DNA of 64,000 nucleotides, taken from Flavobacterium sp. CG_23.5. GTDB taxonomy: Bacteria; Bacteroidota; Bacteroidia; Flavobacteriales; Flavobacteriaceae. A program made the position numbers and the translations under genes. Each line of letters begins with the position of its first letter. The stretch's first letter is position 1. Positions 18,116-26,942 of this stretch are shown here, piece after piece. A model generated the notes under the pieces. That model worked only from the letters and a program-made list of their open reading frames with translations. It searched no databases and was not told the origin of the DNA. Where the stretch lies: contig NZ_JAGGNA010000001.1 of the NCBI RefSeq assembly GCF_017875765.1, forward strand, positions 310,001 through 374,000, written 5' to 3'.

Positions 18116-18685
18116 TTATTGAACTTTAATTTCATGTTTATAAAGCAATCCTTTTATTCCTTCTAATGAAAATACAGCTTTCTTAATTTTTGTTTTGGTA
18201 GGGTCAATGATGTAATTGTAACTTGTTTTGAAATTGGCTTTATTAGCAATTGCTTTCGCAAATTCAGATCGGTATAAATCACAATTATCAAAAACGACTT
18301 CGGTTAAATCTGTACTCATAAAATCTACAGCAACAATACTACAATTGGAAAACGAAGTTCCTTTGATTTTCAGCGTATAAAATTTGGAGAAATCCAAGTT
18401 ACAATCTTTAAAATGAACTTCGAAAATTAGTTTATCACACATTGCAAAATTAACCTCTCTTAGTTCGCAATGATTGAAAAATACGGTTCTTAAAGCCACA
18501 TGATTTATTTGGGCGCCAGTAAAAATGCAATCATTAAAAATACAATCGATAAAAGTGACCGCTATGAAATTGCAACTAGAAAAATTACAGTTTGTAAAAG
18601 TACAGCATTCATATTCCTTAAAATTTATCTCTTCAGAATTATACGTCAGGTTGCGGTATTCAATGTCTAAAAAATATTCTGGCAT
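18116..18685 (-). CDS. pentapeptide-repeat protein
   Basis: 189 aa built from A(D/N)LxF-type pentapeptide units (CNFSSCNF, CIFNDCIF, CNLDFSKF, CDLYRSEF), which should fold as a right-handed quadrilateral beta-helix. There is no signal peptide. Qnr-type gyrase-protecting proteins share this fold and are near this size, but most such genes are of unknown function and nothing here proves a resistance role. Confidence 0.88.
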   Translation of the reverse strand: MPEYFLDIEYRNLTYNSEEINFKEYECCTFTNCNFSSCNFIAVTFIDCIFNDCIFTGAQINHVALRTVFFNHCELREVNFAMCDKLIFEVHFKDCNLDFSKFYTLKIKGTSFSNCSIVAVDFMSTDLTEVVFDNCDLYRSEFAKAIANKANFKTSYNYIIDPTKTKIKKAVFSLEGIKGLLYKHEIKVQ

Positions 18686-19236: not shown

Positions 19237-19418
19237 GAAAAGTGTTTTAAAAATTTAAAGGTAATCAAATGATCTAATTGTATTGCATCTACAAGTATTT
19301 CTTGTTTATAATTATTTTGCTTTTTAACATTTGTTATTCCATTACTAAAAGCAACTGAACTAAGTACCAGCCAAAACAAAAGTAATTTTCAACCAATAAT
19401 TATTCACTTAGTAACGGA

Positions 19419-19638
19419 ATGGATTCAAATTTAAAAATAGATGATAATGGAAATAATAATTTAAAATAATACTGAATTACTGGCATTTGTAAAACGTGAT
19501 GACGTTACAGCCAAACAGGGAACTGAAATTATTTGCAAAGCATTAAACGTAATTAGTATCTTTGAGAAAACCAATGATGAGTTAATTTATGTAACAGAAT
19601 GGTTTATAAATAAATTTCGTCAAAGTGATGATGGATAA
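19419..19638 (+). pseudogene. frameshifted small gene remnant beside the integration site
   Basis: An ATG at 19419 opens 16 codons that end at TAA 19467-19469. In the +1 frame, directly from 19465, coding-like sequence continues for 57 codons (starting NTELLAFVKRDDV) to TAA 19636-19638 without its own start codon. One base lost or gained in an A-rich run near 19463-19470 would join the two into a protein of about 73 aa. I do not recognise the product. It lies just outside the left end of the integrated element. Confidence 0.45.
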
Positions 19639-19670
19639 AGACTAAAAGTTGTGGGGAAATATTAAAATAA

Positions 19671-19729
19671 AAAATCCTTAAAATACTGATTATCAGTATA
19701 ATTAAGGATTTTTAAAGTGACCTTGACTG
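19671..19729. repeat. attL
   Basis: Matches 26822-26880 without gaps at 49 of 59 positions. The identical core GTGACCTTGACTG (19717-19729) is the complement of the tRNA-Arg 3' end. The left part is a hairpin (AAAATCCTTA...TAAGGATTTT) with an inner perfect palindrome ATACTGAT-T-ATCAGTAT (19683-19699), probably the original tRNA terminator. Confidence 0.75.
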
Positions 19730-19871
19730 AACTACTTTTAGTGCAAAAGCATATTTCGTTAATGTTTAGGTTTTATTGCAAATATACTTTTAAAATCAAC
19801 ATTTTCAGTCATTAAAACGTTTTATATCTTTTCATTTAATTTGCAATAGTTATTGTTTATTTGCATTTTGC

Positions 19872-19889
19872 CGTACAAGTACCGTACAA
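19872..19889. repeat. paired CGTACAA direct repeats, left end of element
   Basis: CGTACAA occurs at 19872-19878 and 19883-19889, an 11-bp period, about 140 bp from the attL core and just upstream of the integrase -7 box. A matching pair with the same period lies near attR at 26792-26808. They are candidate arm-type integrase or excisionase sites, or operators for int. Confidence 0.55.
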
Positions 19890-19895
19890 ATGAAT

Positions 19896-19903
19896 TATAT
19901 TTG
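19896..19903 (+). promoter_or_regulatory. -7 promoter element of the integrase gene
   Basis: TATATTTG matches TAnnTTTG, 21 bp before the ATG. The CGTACAA pair lies immediately upstream, over the expected -33 to spacer region, so integrase binding there could repress its own gene. Confidence 0.55.
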
Positions 19904-19923
19904 TACTGTTAATCTTTTCTACT

Positions 19924-21225
19924 ATGGCAACTGTCAATTTTTTATATCGCTCAACTAAAGAAAAAGCAAGTTTACACTTACGTTTATTGTATCGTTTGAA
20001 CGATGCTGATTTTGTTTTTGGCGCAAACACGAAGTTAGAAGTATTAAAAGATTATTGGAGCAAGCAGCACAAAAAAAAGTCTAAAGATATTGATATTACA
20101 AATATGCAGACTGAAGTAAATAACGAACTCAATAAAATTGAAAACCACATAATAAATTCATTCAATTCAATTAATCCGATTGAGATAAATAAAGAATGGC
20201 TTCAAAGCCAGATTGATTGGTATTACAACCCTCCTCAAGAAGCTGAATTATTACCTACAGAATTACTAAAGTATTTTGATTATTTCATTGAGTGTAAAAA
20301 GAATGAAATAACGGTTGGTACTTTGAAAAAATACAATGTTTCCAAGCATTTGCTGCAACGTTATGAACTTGAGAAAAAATCAAAGATTCAGATTGCAGAT
20401 GTAAATGATAAATTCAGATTGGATTTTGAAAAATATTGTTTAAAAAATAATTATGCTCCAAATACAATTTCAAAGGATCTAAGGACTATCAAAACAGTTT
20501 GTAATCATGCTGGACATAATGGATTAAAGATCAGTCACCAGTTAGGAACTATTAAAACGCCTAACTATAAAATAGAAAAAATCTATTTAAACTTCGATGA
20601 GCTGCAAAAAATTGAAAACATTGACAAAAGGCGATTGAATGATAATTATGATAATGCGAAGGACTGGTTAATAATCAGTTGCTATACTGGGCAAAGAATA
20701 TCAGATTTTATGCGTTTCACAAAAGACATGATTCGCTTAGAGAAAAACAAAGAAGGCGTTTTTAAGCCTTTTATTGAGTTTACTCAGGTTAAGACTGATA
20801 AAATTATGACAGTAGCATTACATCCAAAAGTTATGGCTATCCTGGAGAAAAGAGAAGGTAATTTTCCAAAGGTAATTTCGGATCCTAAATATAATCTCTA
20901 CATAAAACAAGTATGCAGAATTGGCAAAATTACCCAGAAGATAAAAGGCAGTAAGTTAAGCGATATTAAAAAAGAAGACGAAACCGAAAAGAAGATGAAA
21001 GACAAAGAAGATGTTAAGCAATACCGTAAAGAATCCGGAATGTTCCCTAAATGGGAATTGATAACAAGCCATATTGGAAGACGTTCATTTGCTTCAAATT
21101 TTTACGGCACAATCCCAACAACCTATTTGATGAATGTTACCGGACATAGTACCGAAGCTATGTTTTTAAATTATTTAAGTAAAAGCAACAAAGATTTGGC
21201 CATGGAAATAACTAATTATTTTTAA
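19924..21225 (+). CDS. tyrosine recombinase / integrase
   Basis: Catalyses integration and excision of the element. 433 aa: N-terminal arm-binding region (LHLRLLYRL), SAM-like core-binding domain (about 105-200), and catalytic domain with Arg258 in TGQRISD, His383 and Arg386 in HIGRR, His408 in TGHST and the nucleophile Tyr417 in LNYL. All catalytic residues are present, so it may be active. It reads inward from attL; in many islands int is beside the intact tRNA, here it is at the other end. Confidence 0.95.
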   Translation: MATVNFLYRSTKEKASLHLRLLYRLNDADFVFGANTKLEVLKDYWSKQHKKKSKDIDITNMQTEVNNELNKIENHIINSFNSINPIEINKEWLQSQIDWYYNPPQEAELLPTELLKYFDYFIECKKNEITVGTLKKYNVSKHLLQRYELEKKSKIQIADVNDKFRLDFEKYCLKNNYAPNTISKDLRTIKTVCNHAGHNGLKISHQLGTIKTPNYKIEKIYLNFDELQKIENIDKRRLNDNYDNAKDWLIISCYTGQRISDFMRFTKDMIRLEKNKEGVFKPFIEFTQVKTDKIMTVALHPKVMAILEKREGNFPKVISDPKYNLYIKQVCRIGKITQKIKGSKLSDIKKEDETEKKMKDKEDVKQYRKESGMFPKWELITSHIGRRSFASNFYGTIPTTYLMNVTGHSTEAMFLNYLSKSNKDLAMEITNYF

Positions 21226-21262
21226 TAATAATTGTTTTAAGTATCAAAAATACCCGCAAAAA

Positions 21263-21949
21263 ATGAAGAAAGAAGGAATTAATTTATTTACGTTTTTAAA
21301 GGAAACTAAATTTACATTCGACGATTACCAGATAGGTTACAATTATGAATTGAAATTATTTTTAGATGATTATGTTGACAATACCGAATTGTTTTTTATT
21401 AGAATGCAAAAATCAATTATTGATGGTCAATTAAAATCATTCAGTCAATATGTAAGTGAGTTAAAAGATGATGAAGGTAATTATGATGAAATATTAGATC
21501 TATTCCAGGCTACAATTGCTACGACAGACAAAATCTTAGAATTTTTCGAAAACAGGAAATTAACTATTGAAGCAAGTTCAAAACCTCAACAAAATGAACC
21601 TTTAGAGCCTGAGCAATTAGAGAGTTTTCACTTCGAAAACAACTTTGATAATATAGATGAAACCGTAATACTTAAATTTTTTAAAGAAAAGCTAGTGAAA
21701 CCTAGATATCTAAAAAATGAGATTTTAGAAAGTTATTTGACCTTCGCATTTTATAAAAAAGAAATTCCGGAGGTTCGTTTTAATATTGATAATTTGAATA
21801 CAAAAGATAAAATAATTAAAATATTTTATGAGTATTATAAAGTAGTTGCCGGCAAGCCCAGAGGTAAACAAATTGATTACGCAAAGCTTTTAGGTGACTA
21901 TTTTGCTGGTTTTGATACTAAAACAGTTAGTTCAAATTTCAGTAAATAA
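21263..21949 (+). CDS. hypothetical acidic protein of the element
   Basis: 228 aa, soluble, acidic, mostly helical, with a low-complexity PQQNEPLEPEQ linker near residues 112-122 separating two halves. The C-terminal half ends with KQIDYAKLLGDYFAGFD, a type of ending I associate with unknown proteins in Bacteroidota mobile elements. No known domain recognised. It follows int by 37 bp. Confidence 0.7.
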   Translation: MKKEGINLFTFLKETKFTFDDYQIGYNYELKLFLDDYVDNTELFFIRMQKSIIDGQLKSFSQYVSELKDDEGNYDEILDLFQATIATTDKILEFFENRKLTIEASSKPQQNEPLEPEQLESFHFENNFDNIDETVILKFFKEKLVKPRYLKNEILESYLTFAFYKKEIPEVRFNIDNLNTKDKIIKIFYEYYKVVAGKPRGKQIDYAKLLGDYFAGFDTKTVSSNFSK

Positions 21950-22046
21950 TACATAAATTACGAAAACAATACGTAATTAACTAATACATTTTTAAAAGCA
22001 TACAAGTAGCTGTCATTTGCAAAGTATAACAACAATACTTTACAAA

Positions 22047-22328
22047 ATGAGCGATCAAATTATTCTACAAGGTACAACGTCCGAAGCATTGGTAAACTTA
22101 ATCAGTGAGGGCGTTAAAATTCAATTAGACAAATTTAAAAAAGAACTTGCAAATCCAGATCCAGACATTCTTTTGACTAGAGATGAAGCTTGTGAACTTC
22201 TTAAAATTAATTCTTCAACTCTGTGGCACTGGACCAATAAAGGCAAAGTGATTGCATACGGTATTGTCAACAGACGGTATTACAAGAGAGCTGAACTTTT
22301 AGCAGCAATTAAACCTTTGAAAGTATAA
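22047..22328 (+). CDS. helix-turn-helix DNA-binding protein (excisionase-like)
   Basis: 93 aa from ATG 22047 (MSDQIILQG); a TTG at 22017 would add 10 residues. The C-terminal half is a winged-HTH of the MerR/HTH_17 type: LLTRDEACELLKINSSTLWHWTNKGKV, then YKRAELLAA. Such proteins beside integrases usually act as excisionases or regulators. It is 4 bp before the nuclease gene. Confidence 0.8.
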   Translation: MSDQIILQGTTSEALVNLISEGVKIQLDKFKKELANPDPDILLTRDEACELLKINSSTLWHWTNKGKVIAYGIVNRRYYKRAELLAAIKPLKV

Positions 22329-22332
22329 GGTT

Positions 22333-22872
22333 ATGCAGCAAAAGAAATCACAAGCAACCAATCCCAAAACGGTAAGACATGTAAAATCTGAAGCTATTAA
22401 AGCTCTGGAACAACTTGCTTTTGAAAATCTTAAAAATAAGTTTCCTTCTTTTCCATTCCATCCAAAACCAAAATACAACGACAATACAACTAATCAGTTA
22501 ACCAAAGCTGTGATTGCTTATATCCAATTGAAAGGCGGGCAAGCCGAAAGGGTAAATTCAACAGGCTTCATGAAAGATAACCGCAAAAATTCAACTGATA
22601 TTTTAGGTCGCACTCGAAGTATTGGCAGTACTAAATGGATTCCCGGAACCGGAAAAACAGGAACTAGTGACATTCATAGTGTCATAAACGGTAAAAGTGT
22701 TAAGATTGAGATTAAATGCGCTGCTACAGCAGACAACAAACAATCAGAAGGACAAATTGCTTATCAAAAAGCAATTAAAGCCGCAGGGGGGATTTATTTA
22801 ATTGTTAGGACTTTTCAAGATTTTTATTTATGGCTAAATGAATTTTGTACGGAAAACTGTAAAAACTCCTAA
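22333..22872 (+). CDS. VRR-NUC-like nuclease
   Basis: 179 aa. The C-terminal part has the PD-(D/E)XK arrangement of VRR-NUC proteins: Asp113 in TSDIHSV, Glu126-x-Lys128 in VKIEIKCAA, then QIAYQKAIKAAGG followed by a hydrophobic strand. The N-terminal 50 residues are basic. VRR-NUC proteins are usual in phage replication modules, and here the gene is 10 bp upstream of a replication protein. Confidence 0.75.
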   Translation: MQQKKSQATNPKTVRHVKSEAIKALEQLAFENLKNKFPSFPFHPKPKYNDNTTNQLTKAVIAYIQLKGGQAERVNSTGFMKDNRKNSTDILGRTRSIGSTKWIPGTGKTGTSDIHSVINGKSVKIEIKCAATADNKQSEGQIAYQKAIKAAGGIYLIVRTFQDFYLWLNEFCTENCKNS

Positions 22873-22882
22873 AACTAAAGCT

Positions 22883-23824
22883 ATGGGTAAGAGACTACCA
22901 TATTTTCAATTTGAAGTTGCTGAGTATCTCGCTGGCGATATCATGTTTTGTTCATTTGAAGCACAAGGACTATTTGTAAACATTATGGCTTTATATTGGC
23001 AAAAAGACTGTGAATTGCAGCTAGAACAGGCCATGAAAAGATTAAAAAGTAATCATCTTTTTGAAGAACTGATAAAAGAAAATATTATCAAAATCAATTC
23101 TGGAAAAATCACTATCAATTTTCTTGATGAACAGTACTCGAAGGCCTCGGATAAATCGCGTGTAAATTCTATGAATGGATCTTTAGGTGGAAGACCAAAA
23201 AAACAGACAGAAAGCGAAAATAAACCGAACGGTTATGATTCGGTTTCTAAAAGTAAAAGCGAAAAAAAGCCAATAAGAGAAGATAAGATAATAGAAGATG
23301 AAATAAAAGAAAGTATTCCTAACAAAGTTGTTGATTTAAAAAATCAACCTACCCATACCAGAATTGATTTTAATAAACTGGTTTCGTTTTTTAATGATAA
23401 TAGAGGGATTTTGCCCGAGGTTAAAAAATTATCGGATGCAAGAAAAAAAAGAATTCAAGTGCTCGAAAAACAATATGGTAAAGAATGCATTCAAATTGCA
23501 ATTGAGAAAGTCAGGGATTCCAATTTTTTACAAGGCAATAATAAAGACAACTGGACCGCGACTTTTGACTGGATATTTAACCCAACGAACTTTATAAAAA
23601 TCATAGAGGACAATTATTTAAATAAAGATAATTCATTAAGATCAGGAGGAAATTTGCAGAATTCCGCTAACGATGCAGTAAACGAAATGTTTGGTGTTTC
23701 AAAACCAGTAAAAAGTCAATTTGTCTATAACCGTGAAAACGCACTCAAGGCCCTAAATAACAAAAAACAATACGTCTTTGATGCTGACAGGATTATAAAT
23801 AATCAAACATTTAATACTGAATAA
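22883..23824 (+). CDS. phage-type replication protein with DUF4373/Lin1244-like N-terminus
   Basis: 313 aa from ATG 22883. Residues 1-100 (YFQFEVAEYLAGDIM, GLFVNIMALYWQ) look like the winged-helix Lin1244/Lin1753-like N-domain. A charged linker with GSLGGRPKK follows. The C-terminal 90 residues (LSDARKKRIQVLEKQYG, then DNWTATFDWIFNPTNFIKI) match the DnaD-like tail of phage replication organisers. An upstream ATG at 22838 overlaps the nuclease gene. Likely starts replication of the element or helps load helicase. Confidence 0.75.
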   Translation: MGKRLPYFQFEVAEYLAGDIMFCSFEAQGLFVNIMALYWQKDCELQLEQAMKRLKSNHLFEELIKENIIKINSGKITINFLDEQYSKASDKSRVNSMNGSLGGRPKKQTESENKPNGYDSVSKSKSEKKPIREDKIIEDEIKESIPNKVVDLKNQPTHTRIDFNKLVSFFNDNRGILPEVKKLSDARKKRIQVLEKQYGKECIQIAIEKVRDSNFLQGNNKDNWTATFDWIFNPTNFIKIIEDNYLNKDNSLRSGGNLQNSANDAVNEMFGVSKPVKSQFVYNRENALKALNNKKQYVFDADRIINNQTFNTE

Positions 23825-23852
23825 AGCACTAAAAGAAAAAAAAGTACACACC

Positions 23853-23865
23853 GGGCCGCGCGCCC
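23853..23865. other. isolated GC-rich island after the replication gene
   Basis: GGGCCGCGCGCCC, 13 consecutive G/C bases, stands alone in very AT-rich DNA 29 bp after the replication gene. It can form a short GGGC/GCCC stem. It could be a replication or nicking site, but that is only suggested by position. Confidence 0.3.
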
Positions 23866-23898
23866 AATTTAAAATTTAACCAATAAAATTAATATACC

Positions 23899-24039
23899 AT
23901 GCAAGAAGGAAAGAACACAGCGGAAATTGAAGCTACACAAGCTCAAATCGATGCATTGCAGACAAAGCTTCAAAAGCTGCAACAAGACGAAAGCGAAGTA
24001 GATCAAGAAACCATCGATAATATGTTAAAACATATTTAA
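23899..24039 (+). CDS. 46-aa coiled-coil small protein
   Basis: MQEGKNTAEIEATQAQID starts a highly charged heptad-like helix rich in Gln, Glu and Lys, ending with NMLKHI. It starts at ATG 23899, 74 bp after the replication gene and 16 bp before the next gene, so it fits an operon. Function unknown. Confidence 0.6.
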   Translation: MQEGKNTAEIEATQAQIDALQTKLQKLQQDESEVDQETIDNMLKHI

Positions 24040-24055
24040 TAATTAAAAAAAAACT

Positions 24056-24727
24056 ATGAACGACACTAGAACACTAATAGAAGAAAACGCCCAGCTAGGG
24101 CAGGAAATAGCAAGAGATTTAATCCAGTACAAACCGGCACTTGCAGATCTGAAAAGAGCTTATGAAGCAATGGAGCTGGGTTTATTTTCTAATGAGATTT
24201 TTAAGACCTTAATATTGACAGGCCCCAGCAATACCGTTGCTTTTTACATTACAACTTTAAACGATCAACTTGACAGGCTCGGCATAACCTCAAGTACGAT
24301 GCGCCTGAATACCATAACTGGCCATGACAAAATAATTGAAGATTTATCCCTAGCAGTTACTGCTGCAAAAGCATTTAGACCAATCACATACAGCCGTAGT
24401 GCTGAATTGTCTTTGAAATTTATTTCGTTTGATGAAGGAATTTTTATTGTTTCAGATGAAGATTACGACGCTATTTTAGAAAGTTTTTGCAGGACCTACA
24501 TAACTGAAGATGAGAAGCCATTTTTGGAATTGGCAAAAGAATTAATGACGTCCTATAATAAATTTTTGGATGTTATAGATCAACAAAACATTGTAACAAA
24601 TTCCAGATTGAGCTGTTTAGGATTGATATTTAGTGAAGATAGTTCACGTAAAGTTTGTATTGATGCTGGAAAACTCAAAGGATTAATAACCTACAAACAG
24701 CGTTTTGAACTAAATCGAGATATATAA
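24056..24727 (+). CDS. hypothetical protein of the element
   Basis: 223 aa, soluble, mainly helical N-terminus (LIEENAQLGQEIARDLI) and a mixed C-terminal half. No domain recognised. It is followed directly by a strong terminator, so it is the last gene of the transcript that starts near the HTH or nuclease gene. Confidence 0.7.
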   Translation: MNDTRTLIEENAQLGQEIARDLIQYKPALADLKRAYEAMELGLFSNEIFKTLILTGPSNTVAFYITTLNDQLDRLGITSSTMRLNTITGHDKIIEDLSLAVTAAKAFRPITYSRSAELSLKFISFDEGIFIVSDEDYDAILESFCRTYITEDEKPFLELAKELMTSYNKFLDVIDQQNIVTNSRLSCLGLIFSEDSSRKVCIDAGKLKGLITYKQRFELNRDI

Positions 24728-24741
24728 TCAAAGTAAATCAA

Positions 24742-24778
24742 TAGAGGGTTTCCCAGTGCTGCAACCCTCTATTTTTTT
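24742..24778 (+). terminator. Rho-independent terminator
   Basis: TAGAGGGTT (24742-24750) pairs with AACCCTCTA (24763-24771) and is followed by a run of seven T. It closes the replication operon of the element. Confidence 0.85.
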
Positions 24779-24858
24779 GAATAATAATAAAAAATATCAC
24801 ACTATTAACTGAATTTATAAGAAACTTTTACAGTAAATAACCATAAAATACAATAATT

Positions 24859-25158
24859 ATGTCAGGATTTAAAGGTACAAGAAACGTAAATGGACGTCCC
24901 AAAGGAGCGTTAAACAAAACTACTGCAGAAACAAAAGAGTTACTTCAAACAGTTTTAGGTAAAGAAGTAGAAAAATTAGGTTCTATGCTGGCAAAGTTAG
25001 ATCCCCTTGACAGGATAAATGCAGTTACGAAACTATTAATTTTAATATTACCAAAGTCAATTGAAGTTAAAGCAGAGGTTACAGCAACCACAGTGGAAAT
25101 GTCAGATGAGCAACGTAATGCGCGAATTGAATATTTAAAAAATAAACTACTAGAATAA
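24859..25158 (+). CDS. DUF5681-like / terminase-small-subunit-associated protein
   Basis: 99 aa. The N-terminus NVNGRPKGALNKTT is the AT-hook-like GRPKG.NK signature of small proteins encoded just upstream of phage large terminases in Bacteroidota. Helical middle (VEKLGSMLAKLDPLDRINAVTK), then the LPKSIEVKAEV segment often seen in that group. No large terminase is in the element. If this is a TerS-type protein, it could redirect helper-phage packaging, as in phage satellites. That function is an inference. Confidence 0.55.
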   Translation: MSGFKGTRNVNGRPKGALNKTTAETKELLQTVLGKEVEKLGSMLAKLDPLDRINAVTKLLILILPKSIEVKAEVTATTVEMSDEQRNARIEYLKNKLLE

Positions 25159-25424
25159 TGGAAATTTTCACCACAGAGGAACAGCTAGAACTCGAAACTT
25201 TATTTATTTGTAAATGGCAACAATTTATCTTTGGTACAATGCTCTTAGATAAAAACAATAATGAAGTTTTAATAAACGATTTGGATTTTGAAGATTTACT
25301 AAATTTTACATTTCCAAATAGTTACAGGGTAAATGATAAAACAATTATAGTTGATTATAATATTTTCAAAATATTGCAATTGAGATATTTTAGGTATAAT
25401 GAAACCGTAAATGTTTTGGATTAA
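25158..25424 (+). CDS. hypothetical protein of the element
   Basis: 88 aa, acidic, with ELETLFICKWQQFIFG and a KTIIVDYNIFKILQ segment. The ATG overlaps the last base of the preceding stop codon, so translation is coupled. Not recognised. A bidirectional terminator follows. Confidence 0.65.
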   Translation: MEIFTTEEQLELETLFICKWQQFIFGTMLLDKNNNEVLINDLDFEDLLNFTFPNSYRVNDKTIIVDYNIFKILQLRYFRYNETVNVLD

Positions 25425-25429
25425 TAAAA

Positions 25430-25452
25430 AACCCTCTCGGATTGAGAGGGTT
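25430..25452. terminator. bidirectional terminator between convergent element genes
   Basis: AACCCTCTC-GGATT-GAGAGGGTT, a perfect 9-bp stem with A-run on one side and T-run on the other. It separates the plus-strand operon from the convergent XRE repressor gene. Confidence 0.85.
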
Positions 25453-25467
25453 AATTTTTTGACTGTT

Positions 25468-25737
25468 TTATTTTTTTTTCAGTTCACCAATTGGAATATA
25501 AGAACCTTCACGAAAAGCGAAAATAGTTTCAGTTTCAACTTCTTTTGTAGAGATCAACAACTCTCGAACGTCCACATTCAAAACGTCTGCAATTTTAATT
25601 AACAAGTCTGGTTTTGGAAAACTATTCCCCTGGACTATGTTTGAAATGCTGGCAGGCGTTACTTCAACTTTTGCAGCCAAATCTTTTCCGGAAATACCTT
25701 TTTCAATTAATAATTCTTTTAGTCTTAAAATGCTCAT
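25468..25737 (-). CDS. XRE-family repressor (Cro/CI-like)
   Basis: 89 aa. N-terminal HTH_3 domain: LKELLIEKGISGKDLAAKV, then TPASISNIVQG as the recognition helix region, and LLIKIADVLNVDVRELL. A short C-terminal tail has no peptidase domain, so induction would not be LexA-like self-cleavage. It is divergent from a small plus-strand gene across 140 bp holding mirrored promoters, the layout of a phage-type switch. Confidence 0.9.
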   Translation of the reverse strand: MSILRLKELLIEKGISGKDLAAKVEVTPASISNIVQGNSFPKPDLLIKIADVLNVDVRELLISTKEVETETIFAFREGSYIPIGELKKK

Positions 25738-25760
25738 GGGTTAGAAATTTATAGTTTAGA

Positions 25761-25848
25761 CAAATATAAGTAAATTATAGTAATACTAAATTATTTTTAA
25801 AATAATTATAGCTTTACTTGTTATTGATTATACTATTACTTATATTTG
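25761..25848. promoter_or_regulatory. divergent switch region with mirror-image promoters and operators
   Basis: CAAATATAAGTAA (25761-25773) is repeated in inverted form as TTACTTATATTTG (25836-25848). Each arm contains a TATATTTG -7 box, one for the repressor (minus) and one for the plus-strand gene. Between them are TAGTA-A-TACTA (25778-25788) and several related TATAGTA/TACTAT words. This is what a repressor-controlled divergent promoter pair should look like. Confidence 0.6.
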
Positions 25849-25877
25849 AAGTATAATAATTATAGAGATACTAAACC

Positions 25878-26066
25878 ATGAAAAATTTAATTAGAGTTTT
25901 AGCAAGTTACTTACTTAGTCCAAATGAAAATGTAATTGTGACTCATGGAGTGTATTACCACAAAACGACTTATACCTTCAATGATTCTGGAGTAACTAGA
26001 AAAACAGATCAGGATAAAATAGATTCTGTTTACAATGGATTAGATTTTGACAAAATTTTTAAATAA
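25878..26066 (+). CDS. small protein divergent from the repressor
   Basis: 62 aa with a hydrophobic N-terminal helix (LIRVLASYLLS) and a polar C-terminal part. It is the first gene read from the rightward switch promoter. Position suggests an early or antirepressor-type gene, but no domain is recognised. Confidence 0.55.
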   Translation: MKNLIRVLASYLLSPNENVIVTHGVYYHKTTYTFNDSGVTRKTDQDKIDSVYNGLDFDKIFK

Positions 26067-26093
26067 ATATTACTAACAAACAAAATTACAATT

Positions 26094-26642
26094 ATGGTAC
26101 TTACACACAATCAGGCAGAAGTAACTCCGAAAGGATTTTTAGAAAAAAGAGACTTTAATTCATTCATGGTACTAGATACAAATAGTATTTTATATCCGGA
26201 TGCAAAACAGGTCTTTGGTTATACAGTTGAAATATTAAATGTGATACGCATTAATACATTAGTAAATAAAATGTGCAATGGTTTTCAATCTAATTTTAAT
26301 ATTGATTCCTCAATTTATTATAAAGCTATAAGTAATGTTTTGGAGAGCAAGCCGTTTTTATATCCTGAACTTGAAAGTTATTTTTTAGCCTCACAGAAGA
26401 AAGAAGAATTTCTTTCCTTCTCTCGCAGCCTTGCAGATATTGAAGATGATTTTTATTTACCCTATGAAGTAGATTATATTCTTTTAGGTATGAATATGGA
26501 CCAGTATGATAAACTTAATGAAGATAAAAAAGGTGATCTAAGCGATAGTTACAGCGATCTTAAATGTAATATGAGTTTCAAGAAAATTGAGATTAAAGAT
26601 TTTATCATCAAAGCAAAACAATTAATTGATGAGGTCCAGTAA
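26094..26642 (+). CDS. hypothetical protein at the right end of the element
   Basis: 182 aa, soluble, acidic C-terminus (LNEDKKGDLSDSYSDL). It follows the 62-aa gene by 27 bp and is the last gene of the element. No family recognised. It could belong with the switch or be an accessory cargo gene. Confidence 0.65.
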   Translation: MVLTHNQAEVTPKGFLEKRDFNSFMVLDTNSILYPDAKQVFGYTVEILNVIRINTLVNKMCNGFQSNFNIDSSIYYKAISNVLESKPFLYPELESYFLASQKKEEFLSFSRSLADIEDDFYLPYEVDYILLGMNMDQYDKLNEDKKGDLSDSYSDLKCNMSFKKIEIKDFIIKAKQLIDEVQ

Positions 26643-26711
26643 AGAAACGCTAGTATTTCCATTTGCTGAAATGAAATAAAGCAATAAATAATAATCTAAT
26701 ATTTTAGAGAT

Positions 26712-26741
26712 AAAAAACCTTTCAGAAATGGAAGGTTTTTT
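26712..26741. terminator. terminator after the last gene of the element
   Basis: AAAAAACCTT (26712-26721) pairs with AAGGTTTTTT (26732-26741), with T-run following. The remaining bases to attR hold only the CGTACA repeat pair. Confidence 0.75.
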
Positions 26742-26791
26742 TGTTTGAAAATGGTTTGAAAATATATTAAAAAATGTTTTTTTAACTCAAT

Positions 26792-26808
26792 CGTACATAA
26801 ATCGTACA
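26792..26808. repeat. paired CGTACA direct repeats, right end of element
   Basis: TCGTACA occurs at 26791-26797 and 26802-26808, the same 11-bp period as the pair at 19872-19889. The pair is about 60 bp inside the attR core. Candidate arm-type recombinase sites. Confidence 0.5.
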
Positions 26809-26821
26809 AGTATTAAATTTA

Positions 26822-26880
26822 AAAATCCTTAAACTCCTGCTTTACAGTACGTTTAAGGATTTTTTATGTGACCTTGACTG
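26822..26880. repeat. attR, overlapping the 3' end of tRNA-Arg
   Basis: Gapless match to attL (49/59). Positions 26868-26880 are the identical core; 26869-26880 are also the last 12 nt of the tRNA gene. The hairpin AAAAATCCTTAAA/TTTAAGGATTTTT (26821-26864) serves as the tRNA terminator on the minus strand. Confidence 0.75.
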
Positions 26881-26942
26881 GATTCAAACCAGTAACCTCT
26901 TGAGCCGTAATCAAGTGCGCTATTCAGTTGCGCCACAAGGCC
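26869..26942 (-). tRNA. tRNA-Arg (anticodon ACG)
   Basis: 74 nt. On the minus strand: acceptor GGCCTTG pairs with CAAGGTC (one G-U), D-stem GCGC/GCGC, anticodon stem CTTGA/TCAAG with loop TTACGGC (anticodon ACG, read as ICG), T-stem ACTGG/CCAGT with loop TTTGAAT, discriminator A. CCA is not encoded. It is intact after integration because the element restores the 3' end. Confidence 0.95.

Follow-up and report, generated by a model that had tools for sequence, protein, structure and literature searches.

What kind of element occupies the 3' end of a tRNA-Arg(ACG) gene in Flavobacterium sp. CG_23.5, and by what means might it travel? The window analysed here, a 64-kb stretch (contig NZ_JAGGNA010000001.1, positions 310,001-374,000) of a 3.67-Mb genome held in one contig (G000:C1), carries at this site an element of 7,151 bp (window positions 19717-26867) with a GC content of 0.304, compared to 0.329 across the remaining window. 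An earlier note on this DNA had read the element as a Bacteroidota phage satellite of a possibly undescribed family, and this reading is supported by a family of ten related islands and by the identity of a small terminase (TerS). We regard the element as very probably a phage satellite. The satellite family of Bacteroidota is apparently undescribed and, judging from sequence comparisons, the element is probably packed into the particles of a tail-matched phage group.

The protein on which this reading turns is 99 aa long (24859..25158, + strand). The earlier note called it terminase-associated, and it turns out to be a small terminase with an N-domain of the GRxKG type and a helper-type C-terminal tail. 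Homologues of its N-domain lie directly upstream of the large terminase (TerL) gene in phage contigs L024, L025 and L026. In the sibling island L074, the slot between genes g7 and g9 is taken by a 181-aa protein that matches Pfam Terminase_2 above cut-off (3.6e-13) and phrog_51, terminase small subunit. The last 22 residues of this protein agree at 17/22 positions with those of the 99-aa protein of another sibling, L013, indicating that the N-domain was swapped and the tail retained. The L074 TerS had 201 relatives in IMG/VR, 80 of which were kept; the first 17 among the matches listed are 52-77% identical.

We looked at the tail with a hidden Markov model (HMM) built on the last 26 residues of ten phage TerS proteins (38-77% identical to that of L074) and on zero satellite sequences. 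Among 444 proteins, a set in which satellite TerS and g9 occur twice (as named proteins and as open reading frames, ORFs), seven satellite TerS ranked first: those of L019 (35.4 bits), L014 (28.0), L075 (23.6), L015 (21.6), the window (16.6), L074 (14.9) and L013 (13.4). For each of the six 99-aa TerS, window included, 0/2000 shuffles reached the score. The N-domain relatives in L023, L024 and L026 are without the helper-type tail. As judged by its sequence, the window TerS is the N-domain of one TerS class joined to the C-terminal tail of another phage group, and the ten phages that define this tail are likely helpers. Since lambda TerS contacts TerL via its C-terminal part, as passages of PMC6739421 describe, docking of the tail on the helper TerL would be the natural reading. 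By sequence and context, a TerS of this type provides a means of redirecting helper packaging.

Among phage loci, the TerS tail goes with a TerL start motif of the TDAEILELE type: both are present in 10 and neither in 33 of 44 distinct loci, with 1 split (81 loci were tried, 77 of them with both genes). At the split locus, L101, the tail is present and the regular expression missed a motif variant, the TerL starting MMITEAELDELEDLV. Given that these phages are relatives of one another and that TerL family guided the choice of the training set, these counts indicate co-inheritance and are not an independent statistic. As single queries, the L013 TerS found 0 matches in phages and the L019 TerS no relative among 36 IMG/VR pattern matches.

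The ten islands related to the window element (L013, L014, L015, L016, L017, L019, L074, L075, L077 and the partial L215) come from Flavobacterium and Lutibacter, L019 lying in a metagenome-assembled genome (MAG) of Lutibacter flavus. They were gathered by nuclease (3/249 genus genomes, own included), by g7, by TerS alignment against genome contigs (5 loci, 3 already known) and by integrase in four chosen genomes. Duplicates of L015, L013 and L014 (L020-L022), the cut contig L023 with its TerS N-domain only, and integrase loci L212-L214 were left out. Relatives of similar size and gene order, sought at the suggestion of the earlier note, do exist. The best are L075, in which the integrase (54%), g2, the helix-turn-helix (HTH) gene, the nuclease (61%), g7, TerS and g9 follow one another as in the window, and L074, which has nine genes in common with it, including xre at 81%; L013, L014, L015 and L019 also qualify. 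A stand-alone TerS occurs in 6/10 islands (L013, L014, L015, L019, L075 and, in its Terminase_2 form, L074), and the window-type HTH in 8/10. The L015 integrase belongs to phrog_1, yet is without BLAST similarity to that of the window. Replication modules are exchanged: the window, L074 and L019 have a DnaD/O-like protein and L015 and the G021 relative a D5 primase, while L014, L017 and L077 carry an unassigned 420-431-aa protein (the L017 and L077 copies are 61% and 30% identical to that of L014).

The hallmark of these satellites is g7 (223 aa; 24056..24727, + strand), which is found in 8/10 islands (not in L016 or L215; in L077 only via a profile and a sibling's g7). A single search found it in 7/249 genus genomes and the profile in 9/398, own included in both, and an order-wide search matched the own genome alone (1/395). 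The g7 of L019 had 0 matches in 50,697 phage records; no relative of g7 occurred among 23 IMG/VR pattern matches, nor any match among plasmids in a single-sequence search. A weak match in G050 (locus L079) lies among host genes only, and G160, another weak match, was left out of the island set. Homology of g7 to a phage 149-aa tail protein was rejected (hhalign probability 0.4%), and the g7 and TerS profiles each gave one match to PDB sequences (E 0.054 and 0.01), both to unrelated proteins.

The ends of the element agree with site-specific integration. The 59-nt terminal repeat of the earlier note (19671-19729 and 26822-26880) is 49/59 identical, the next-best site in the window reaching 32/59, and a repeat search of the window extends it to 73 nt at 82% (right copy, 26808-26880). 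It overlaps the 3' end of tRNA-Arg(ACG) (ARAGORN; 26868..26942, - strand), as had been claimed: the exact core GTGACCTTGACTG is the 3'-terminal 13 nt of the tRNA gene. Within the window this core occurs only at 26868-26880 and, as an exact duplicate forming the distal attachment (att) core, at 19717..19729 (unstranded); 0/200 shuffles matched this. A terminator-like hairpin makes up most of what remains of the repeat, which limits the exact att core to 13 nt and gives an element of 7,151 bp. To the left of the distal core, the hairpin (19657..19716, unstranded), recognised by the 73-nt match and its place relative to the core, may be the host's tRNA-Arg terminator, displaced when the element integrated. 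Its counterpart beside the tRNA (26808..26867, unstranded), a terminator mimic carried by the element, would then be the replacement. Moreover, in 9/9 elements, window included, the 3' end of a tRNA or tmRNA is copied exactly over 13-43 nt on the far side of the integrase, with 0/200 shuffles in each case; this test left out L215, a cut contig, and L013, in which the contig stops short of the integrase end. The nine elements are 5,792-11,084 bp long. A short stretch at window positions 19380-19660, lying between the distal att and the host flank, appears coding-like by eye and is possibly the remnant of an older insertion.

To see how this locus is occupied elsewhere, 25 of the 30 apt loci returned were examined (L027-L051, own included; L052-L056 left out). 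The tRNA-Arg(ACG) gene adjoins apt in 23/25 loci. Past the tRNA and its terminator, the DNA of those loci is without match to the window element, except for 166 nt at 88% in L034, which makes the site an integration hotspot. For seven apt loci, a further 19-20 kb was compared. A strain with an unoccupied tRNA-Arg site, which the earlier note had proposed to look for, was found in the sister species G010, where synteny is conserved and the element absent: the tRNA is followed by a gene for a 696-aa protein, a homologue (84%) of the window gene at 18116-18685 and more left-flank genes. One host gene differs, which makes the locus naturally empty but short of a perfect pre-integration allele. G019 has a homologue of the 18116-18685 gene 8 kb off, and the other five loci are without such a neighbourhood. 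In G021, an integrase 79% identical to that of the window lies three genes from a homologue (59%) of the same gene, and the contig with tRNA-Arg terminates in sequence resembling the right end of the element.

Other islands were seen along the way. Downstream of the same tRNA-Arg(ACG), L018 (G007:C12) has phage-type replication genes (DnaD-like by BLAST, the rest by eye). L216 (G019:C12), with an integrase 58% identical to the window's, an HTH gene, a D5 primase and no g7 or TerS match, is possibly a decayed satellite. A second island of the own genome, L217 (G000:C1:2507001-2526000), lies near tRNA-Ser(GGA); its integrase and HTH are 32% and 39% identical to the window's, one gene weakly resembles the L019 replication gene, a 47-aa ORF is repeated in four copies, and g7 and TerS gave no match.

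The element is without a complete set of virion genes. Pfam and PHROGs scans of 10/12 element ORFs (the 46-aa and 62-aa ORFs were left out) returned no capsid, portal, tail, lysis or relaxase family at E 0.001 or better, in agreement with the earlier note; matches to such names were at chance level (HTH to terminase small subunit, 0.05, and replication protein to virion protein, 0.89, both in PHROGs). We also compared by BLAST 260 phage ORFs (at least 100 aa, from 11 phage loci in which TerL, portal and head genes are all present) with the 379 ORFs of 12 elements, namely the window element, the ten islands and a contig termed L080. Only TerS, TMP (tape-measure protein), tail/virion and replication genes and two small L080 genes matched. 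None of the 12 elements thus has a capsid, portal or TerL of helper type, while unrelated kinds are possible in ORFs without a family scan.

Which phages could act as helpers? Candidates are the IMG/VR loci with the TerS tail, the phage contigs L161 (50 kb) and L162 (58 kb) by their tail genes, and prophages of the genus. A helper-type TerL gave strong matches (E < 1e-100) in 6/249 genus genomes and weaker ones in 5 more (TerL loci L196-L207 were left out). In G143, a MAG that is 68% complete, the satellite L014 and a helper-type TerL occur together. In G213, a prophage on the chromosome that includes portal and head genes (L195) occurs alongside the 19,757-bp contig L080 (G213:C3). The sequence of L080 is identical to that of NZ_CP092372.1, a plasmid from Flavobacterium sp. 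CBA20B-1 typed non-mobilizable. L080 encodes g7-like, TMP-like and virion proteins, ParA, a DnaB-like helicase and a tyrosine recombinase, and its virion protein is 95.3% identical to that of the resident prophage. No capsid, portal or TerL was found in it by ORF BLAST, by comparing seven proteins with PHROGs or in the feature list of NZ_CP092372.1. L080 looks like a plasmid-borne satellite, distant from the window element (g7 profile E 1e-11). In the G213 prophage itself, the 764-aa TerL (L195:18-2309) has extra N-terminal sequence, intein-like by eye. A prophage of a candidate helper lineage in G025, with matches to TerS, TerL, portal, major head, endolysin and integrase, has its integrase adjoining the same tRNA-Arg (one end seen). 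It is without the TerS tail and the TerL motif, and is therefore of the right lineage with the wrong terminase.

Tail genes provide a further link, since those of the satellites are of the same phage type as those of the candidate helpers. Tape-measure genes occur in L013 (PF20155, 2.9e-29; phrog_18891, 6e-65), in L074 (62% identical to that of L013) and in L016, with a weaker match to a different type (phrog_25241, 2e-10); no such gene is carried by L075 or the window element. L019 encodes a 745-aa virion protein (phrog_15220, 6e-121), 72% and 81% identical to those of L161 and L162, the terminase genes of which lie outside the stretches compared. At both of their ends, the 1,388-1,389-aa TMPs of L161 and L162 are matched by the TMPs of L013 and L074 (1,105 and 1,104 aa), in which ~280 aa of the middle are missing, and shorter tails than those of the L161 and L162 phages are therefore predicted. 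Full-looking copies among the genus TMP matches have open frames of 1,027 to 1,548 aa, which places satellite TMP length within the phage range.

The gene immediately following TerS, g9 (88 aa; 25158..25424, + strand), has an N-terminus resembling that of the helper TerL. Such TerL-like starts are seen in L013 (MITDAELLELEILL), L074 (MTDAELLELEILL), L075 (FTDAEVYELENLF) and the window (FTTEEQLELETLF). With a TerL-N HMM, the g9 of L013, L074 and L075 scored 14.2, 12.9 and 14.5 bits (0/5000 shuffles each), and BLAST found no g9 relative in the remaining seven islands. In staphylococcal pathogenicity islands (SaPIs), passages of PMC6739421 and PMC5052747 describe an island TerS that works with the helper TerL and a protein, Ppi, that binds the phage TerS. 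Modelled on this pair, g9 is hypothesized to be a decoy for the helper TerS, and this role stays hypothetical because the window match is weak and relatives are absent from seven islands.

These observations suggest how the element might work. The integrase inserts it at the 3' end of tRNA-Arg(ACG) and, as the sequence shows, leaves the tRNA and a terminator intact; the repressor would hold it silent. Once a helper infects or is induced, excision would fall to the HTH/Xis-like protein and the integrase, and replication to the DnaD/O-like protein. The 99-aa small terminase would mark element DNA for packaging, its N-domain reading the satellite's own packaging site and its C-tail, which matches in sequence, docking on the helper TerL. 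Meanwhile, g9 could bind the helper TerS and keep it off its own TerL, a step for which the case is weak in the window copy. Capsid, tail and motor would come from the helper, and some siblings would add their own tape-measure or tail protein. The joint reading, in which the TerS tail recruits the helper TerL, g9 mimics the TerL N-terminus and sequesters the helper TerS, some members have a shortened TMP and at least one relative is a plasmid beside a helper prophage, is one that we put forward tentatively and would sooner doubt than assert.

Several points weigh against the satellite reading. Mobilisation by a helper, with excision, replication and packaging, is what we infer, and no cos or pac site was identified in the element. 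No matching helper prophage was found in the own genome, which has no helper-type TerL (11/249 genomes positive), no Terminase_6N (6/14 controls positive) and no helper-type TMP (12/249 positive). The TerS tail has only ~20 residues, and the ten training phages are related and were chosen by TerL family. The window g9 reaches 5.2 bits with the TerL-N HMM, a weak score attained by 13/5000 shuffles. Lastly, g7, g2 and g182 are without assigned function.

Could the element instead be a decayed prophage that lost its structural genes by deletion? Its replication, nuclease and TerS genes are phage-like, and satellites may originate from prophages. However, every ORF and the att are intact, similar sets of genes turn up with divergent sequences at various tRNAs, the TerS unites an N-domain and a tail from two phage classes, and the sibling g7 is without match in the phage records. 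No prophage with these genes next to structural ones, the finding that the earlier note had named as favouring decay, was found; the TerS N-domain and parts of the replication protein recur singly in phages. We consider decay quite improbable.

Highly improbable, in our view, is a defence island riding on an integrase, whose packaging-like genes serve phage blocking only. A g9 and a chimeric TerS could poison a phage terminase with the island itself staying unpackaged, but the element has its own replication gene, and padloc found no defence family in eight proteins beyond generic HTH matches and a weak g7 match (0.005). An integrase and a tRNA site are likewise typical of integrative mobilizable elements, and the locus could be one of these, or a plain genomic island, transferred by conjugation or through the integrase alone; the 420-431-aa protein of L014, L017 and L077, which has no family match, might by resemblance be a rolling-circle initiator. 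Yet the scanned proteins include no relaxase family, and small terminase and tape-measure genes would be senseless in such an element, which leaves this explanation barely credible. A phage satellite accounts for the locus best in our judgement.

The remaining genes complete the element. The tyrosine integrase (433 aa; 19924..21225, + strand; PF13102, PF00589) is intact, as first proposed, with Phage_int_SAM_5 (3e-14), Phage_integrase (1.5e-6) and HIGR and GHS motifs close to its end. It is followed by g2 (228 aa; 21263..21949, + strand), which has weakly related counterparts in the corresponding place of L074 and L075 (26-29%, E 7e-6 and 4e-5). The HTH and XRE genes of the earlier note are backed by family matches. 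The former (22047..22328, + strand) is an HTH_17/excisionase-like DNA-binding protein (PF12728, 1e-9; phrog_66 excisionase and regulator, 5e-6), and the latter (25468..25737, - strand; HTH_3, 2e-12) an XRE/CI-type repressor, divergent from ORFs beginning at 25878. For the putative nuclease (22333..22872, + strand; 43-61% in L013, L016, L074 and L075), the VRR-NUC-like label is backed only in part, by an endonuclease match (phrog_93, 6e-7) with no Pfam VRR_NUC match. The replication gene (22838..23824, + strand, an internal start being also possible) matches DnaD/O-like phage helicase loaders, in line with its earlier naming as a replication gene (phrog_10469, 1e-28; phrog_345, 5e-18; 55% over 175 aa in L074); as a single query it matched 2/100 genomes, own included. 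Upstream of g7 lies g46 (46 aa; 23899..24039, + strand), 42% identical to an L015 ORF, with 51-55-aa ORFs likewise placed in L013, L014 and L074. Beyond the repressor are a 62-aa ORF (25878..26066, + strand), taken from the ORF list and without padloc match, and g182 (26094..26642, + strand), which lies beside xre and is 64% and 55% identical to homologues in L016 and L074.

If the satellite reading is true, phage satellites extend to Flavobacteriia, with a helper group that can be named. With N-domains naturally swapped on a retained TerS tail, and with a g9 that resembles TerL, terminase hijacking would be open to direct testing. To the earlier reading, the present analysis adds the exact ends, an unoccupied locus, a family of islands, a helper group and what the terminase protein is. 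A full-text search of the open-licence part of PMC found no description of a phage satellite of Bacteroidota; passages of PMC11389934 name PICMI, Tycheposons and VEIMEs.

How does the element compare with known systems? Like SaPIs and pac-type phage-inducible chromosomal islands (PICIs), it is a small integrated island whose own TerS would work with a helper TerL. It differs in lying in Bacteroidota, in having no stl, pri or cpm homologue recognised in family scans, in a blocker candidate, g9, that resembles the TerL N-terminus, and in a TerS that combines two classes. EcCICFT073, a Gram-negative cos PICI, redirects the helper terminase complex, according to passages of PMC6739421. It uses Rpp and requires the phage TerS, whereas the window element has its own TerS. 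Passages of PMC12987554 report that phage-inducible chromosomal island-like elements (PLEs) build chimeric tails using their own tape-measure protein, and that putative tmp genes occur in capsid-forming PICIs too. Three siblings here carry a TMP gene as PLEs do; the window element, without TMP and in another host than Vibrio cholerae, is set apart by description from PLEs, whose helper is the lytic phage ICP1. By the definitions that we take for these groups, the own capsid and packaging genes of capsid-forming PICIs are lacking here (no capsid or portal in 10/12 proteins), and of the PICI features, an own TerS or Rpp is present, the divergent XRE gene lies at the opposite end from the integrase instead of forming a switch beside it, and the pri/rep primase module is absent from the window, the L015 and G021 relatives having a D5 primase. 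The PICI definition is thus not fitted, and the term 'PICI-like' used in the earlier note is valid for the mode of action, not for descent. With P4-like satellites the element shares small size and tRNA integration, and its L015 and G021 relatives a D5-type primase module. It differs from them in its own TerS. Genes of sid, psu, delta, epsilon and alpha type were recognised neither among Pfam/PHROG matches (10 proteins) nor among NCBIfam matches (9 proteins), distant analogues being possible. The element may also be likened to PICMI, Tycheposons and VEIMEs, minimal elements whose packaging is ascribed to helpers.

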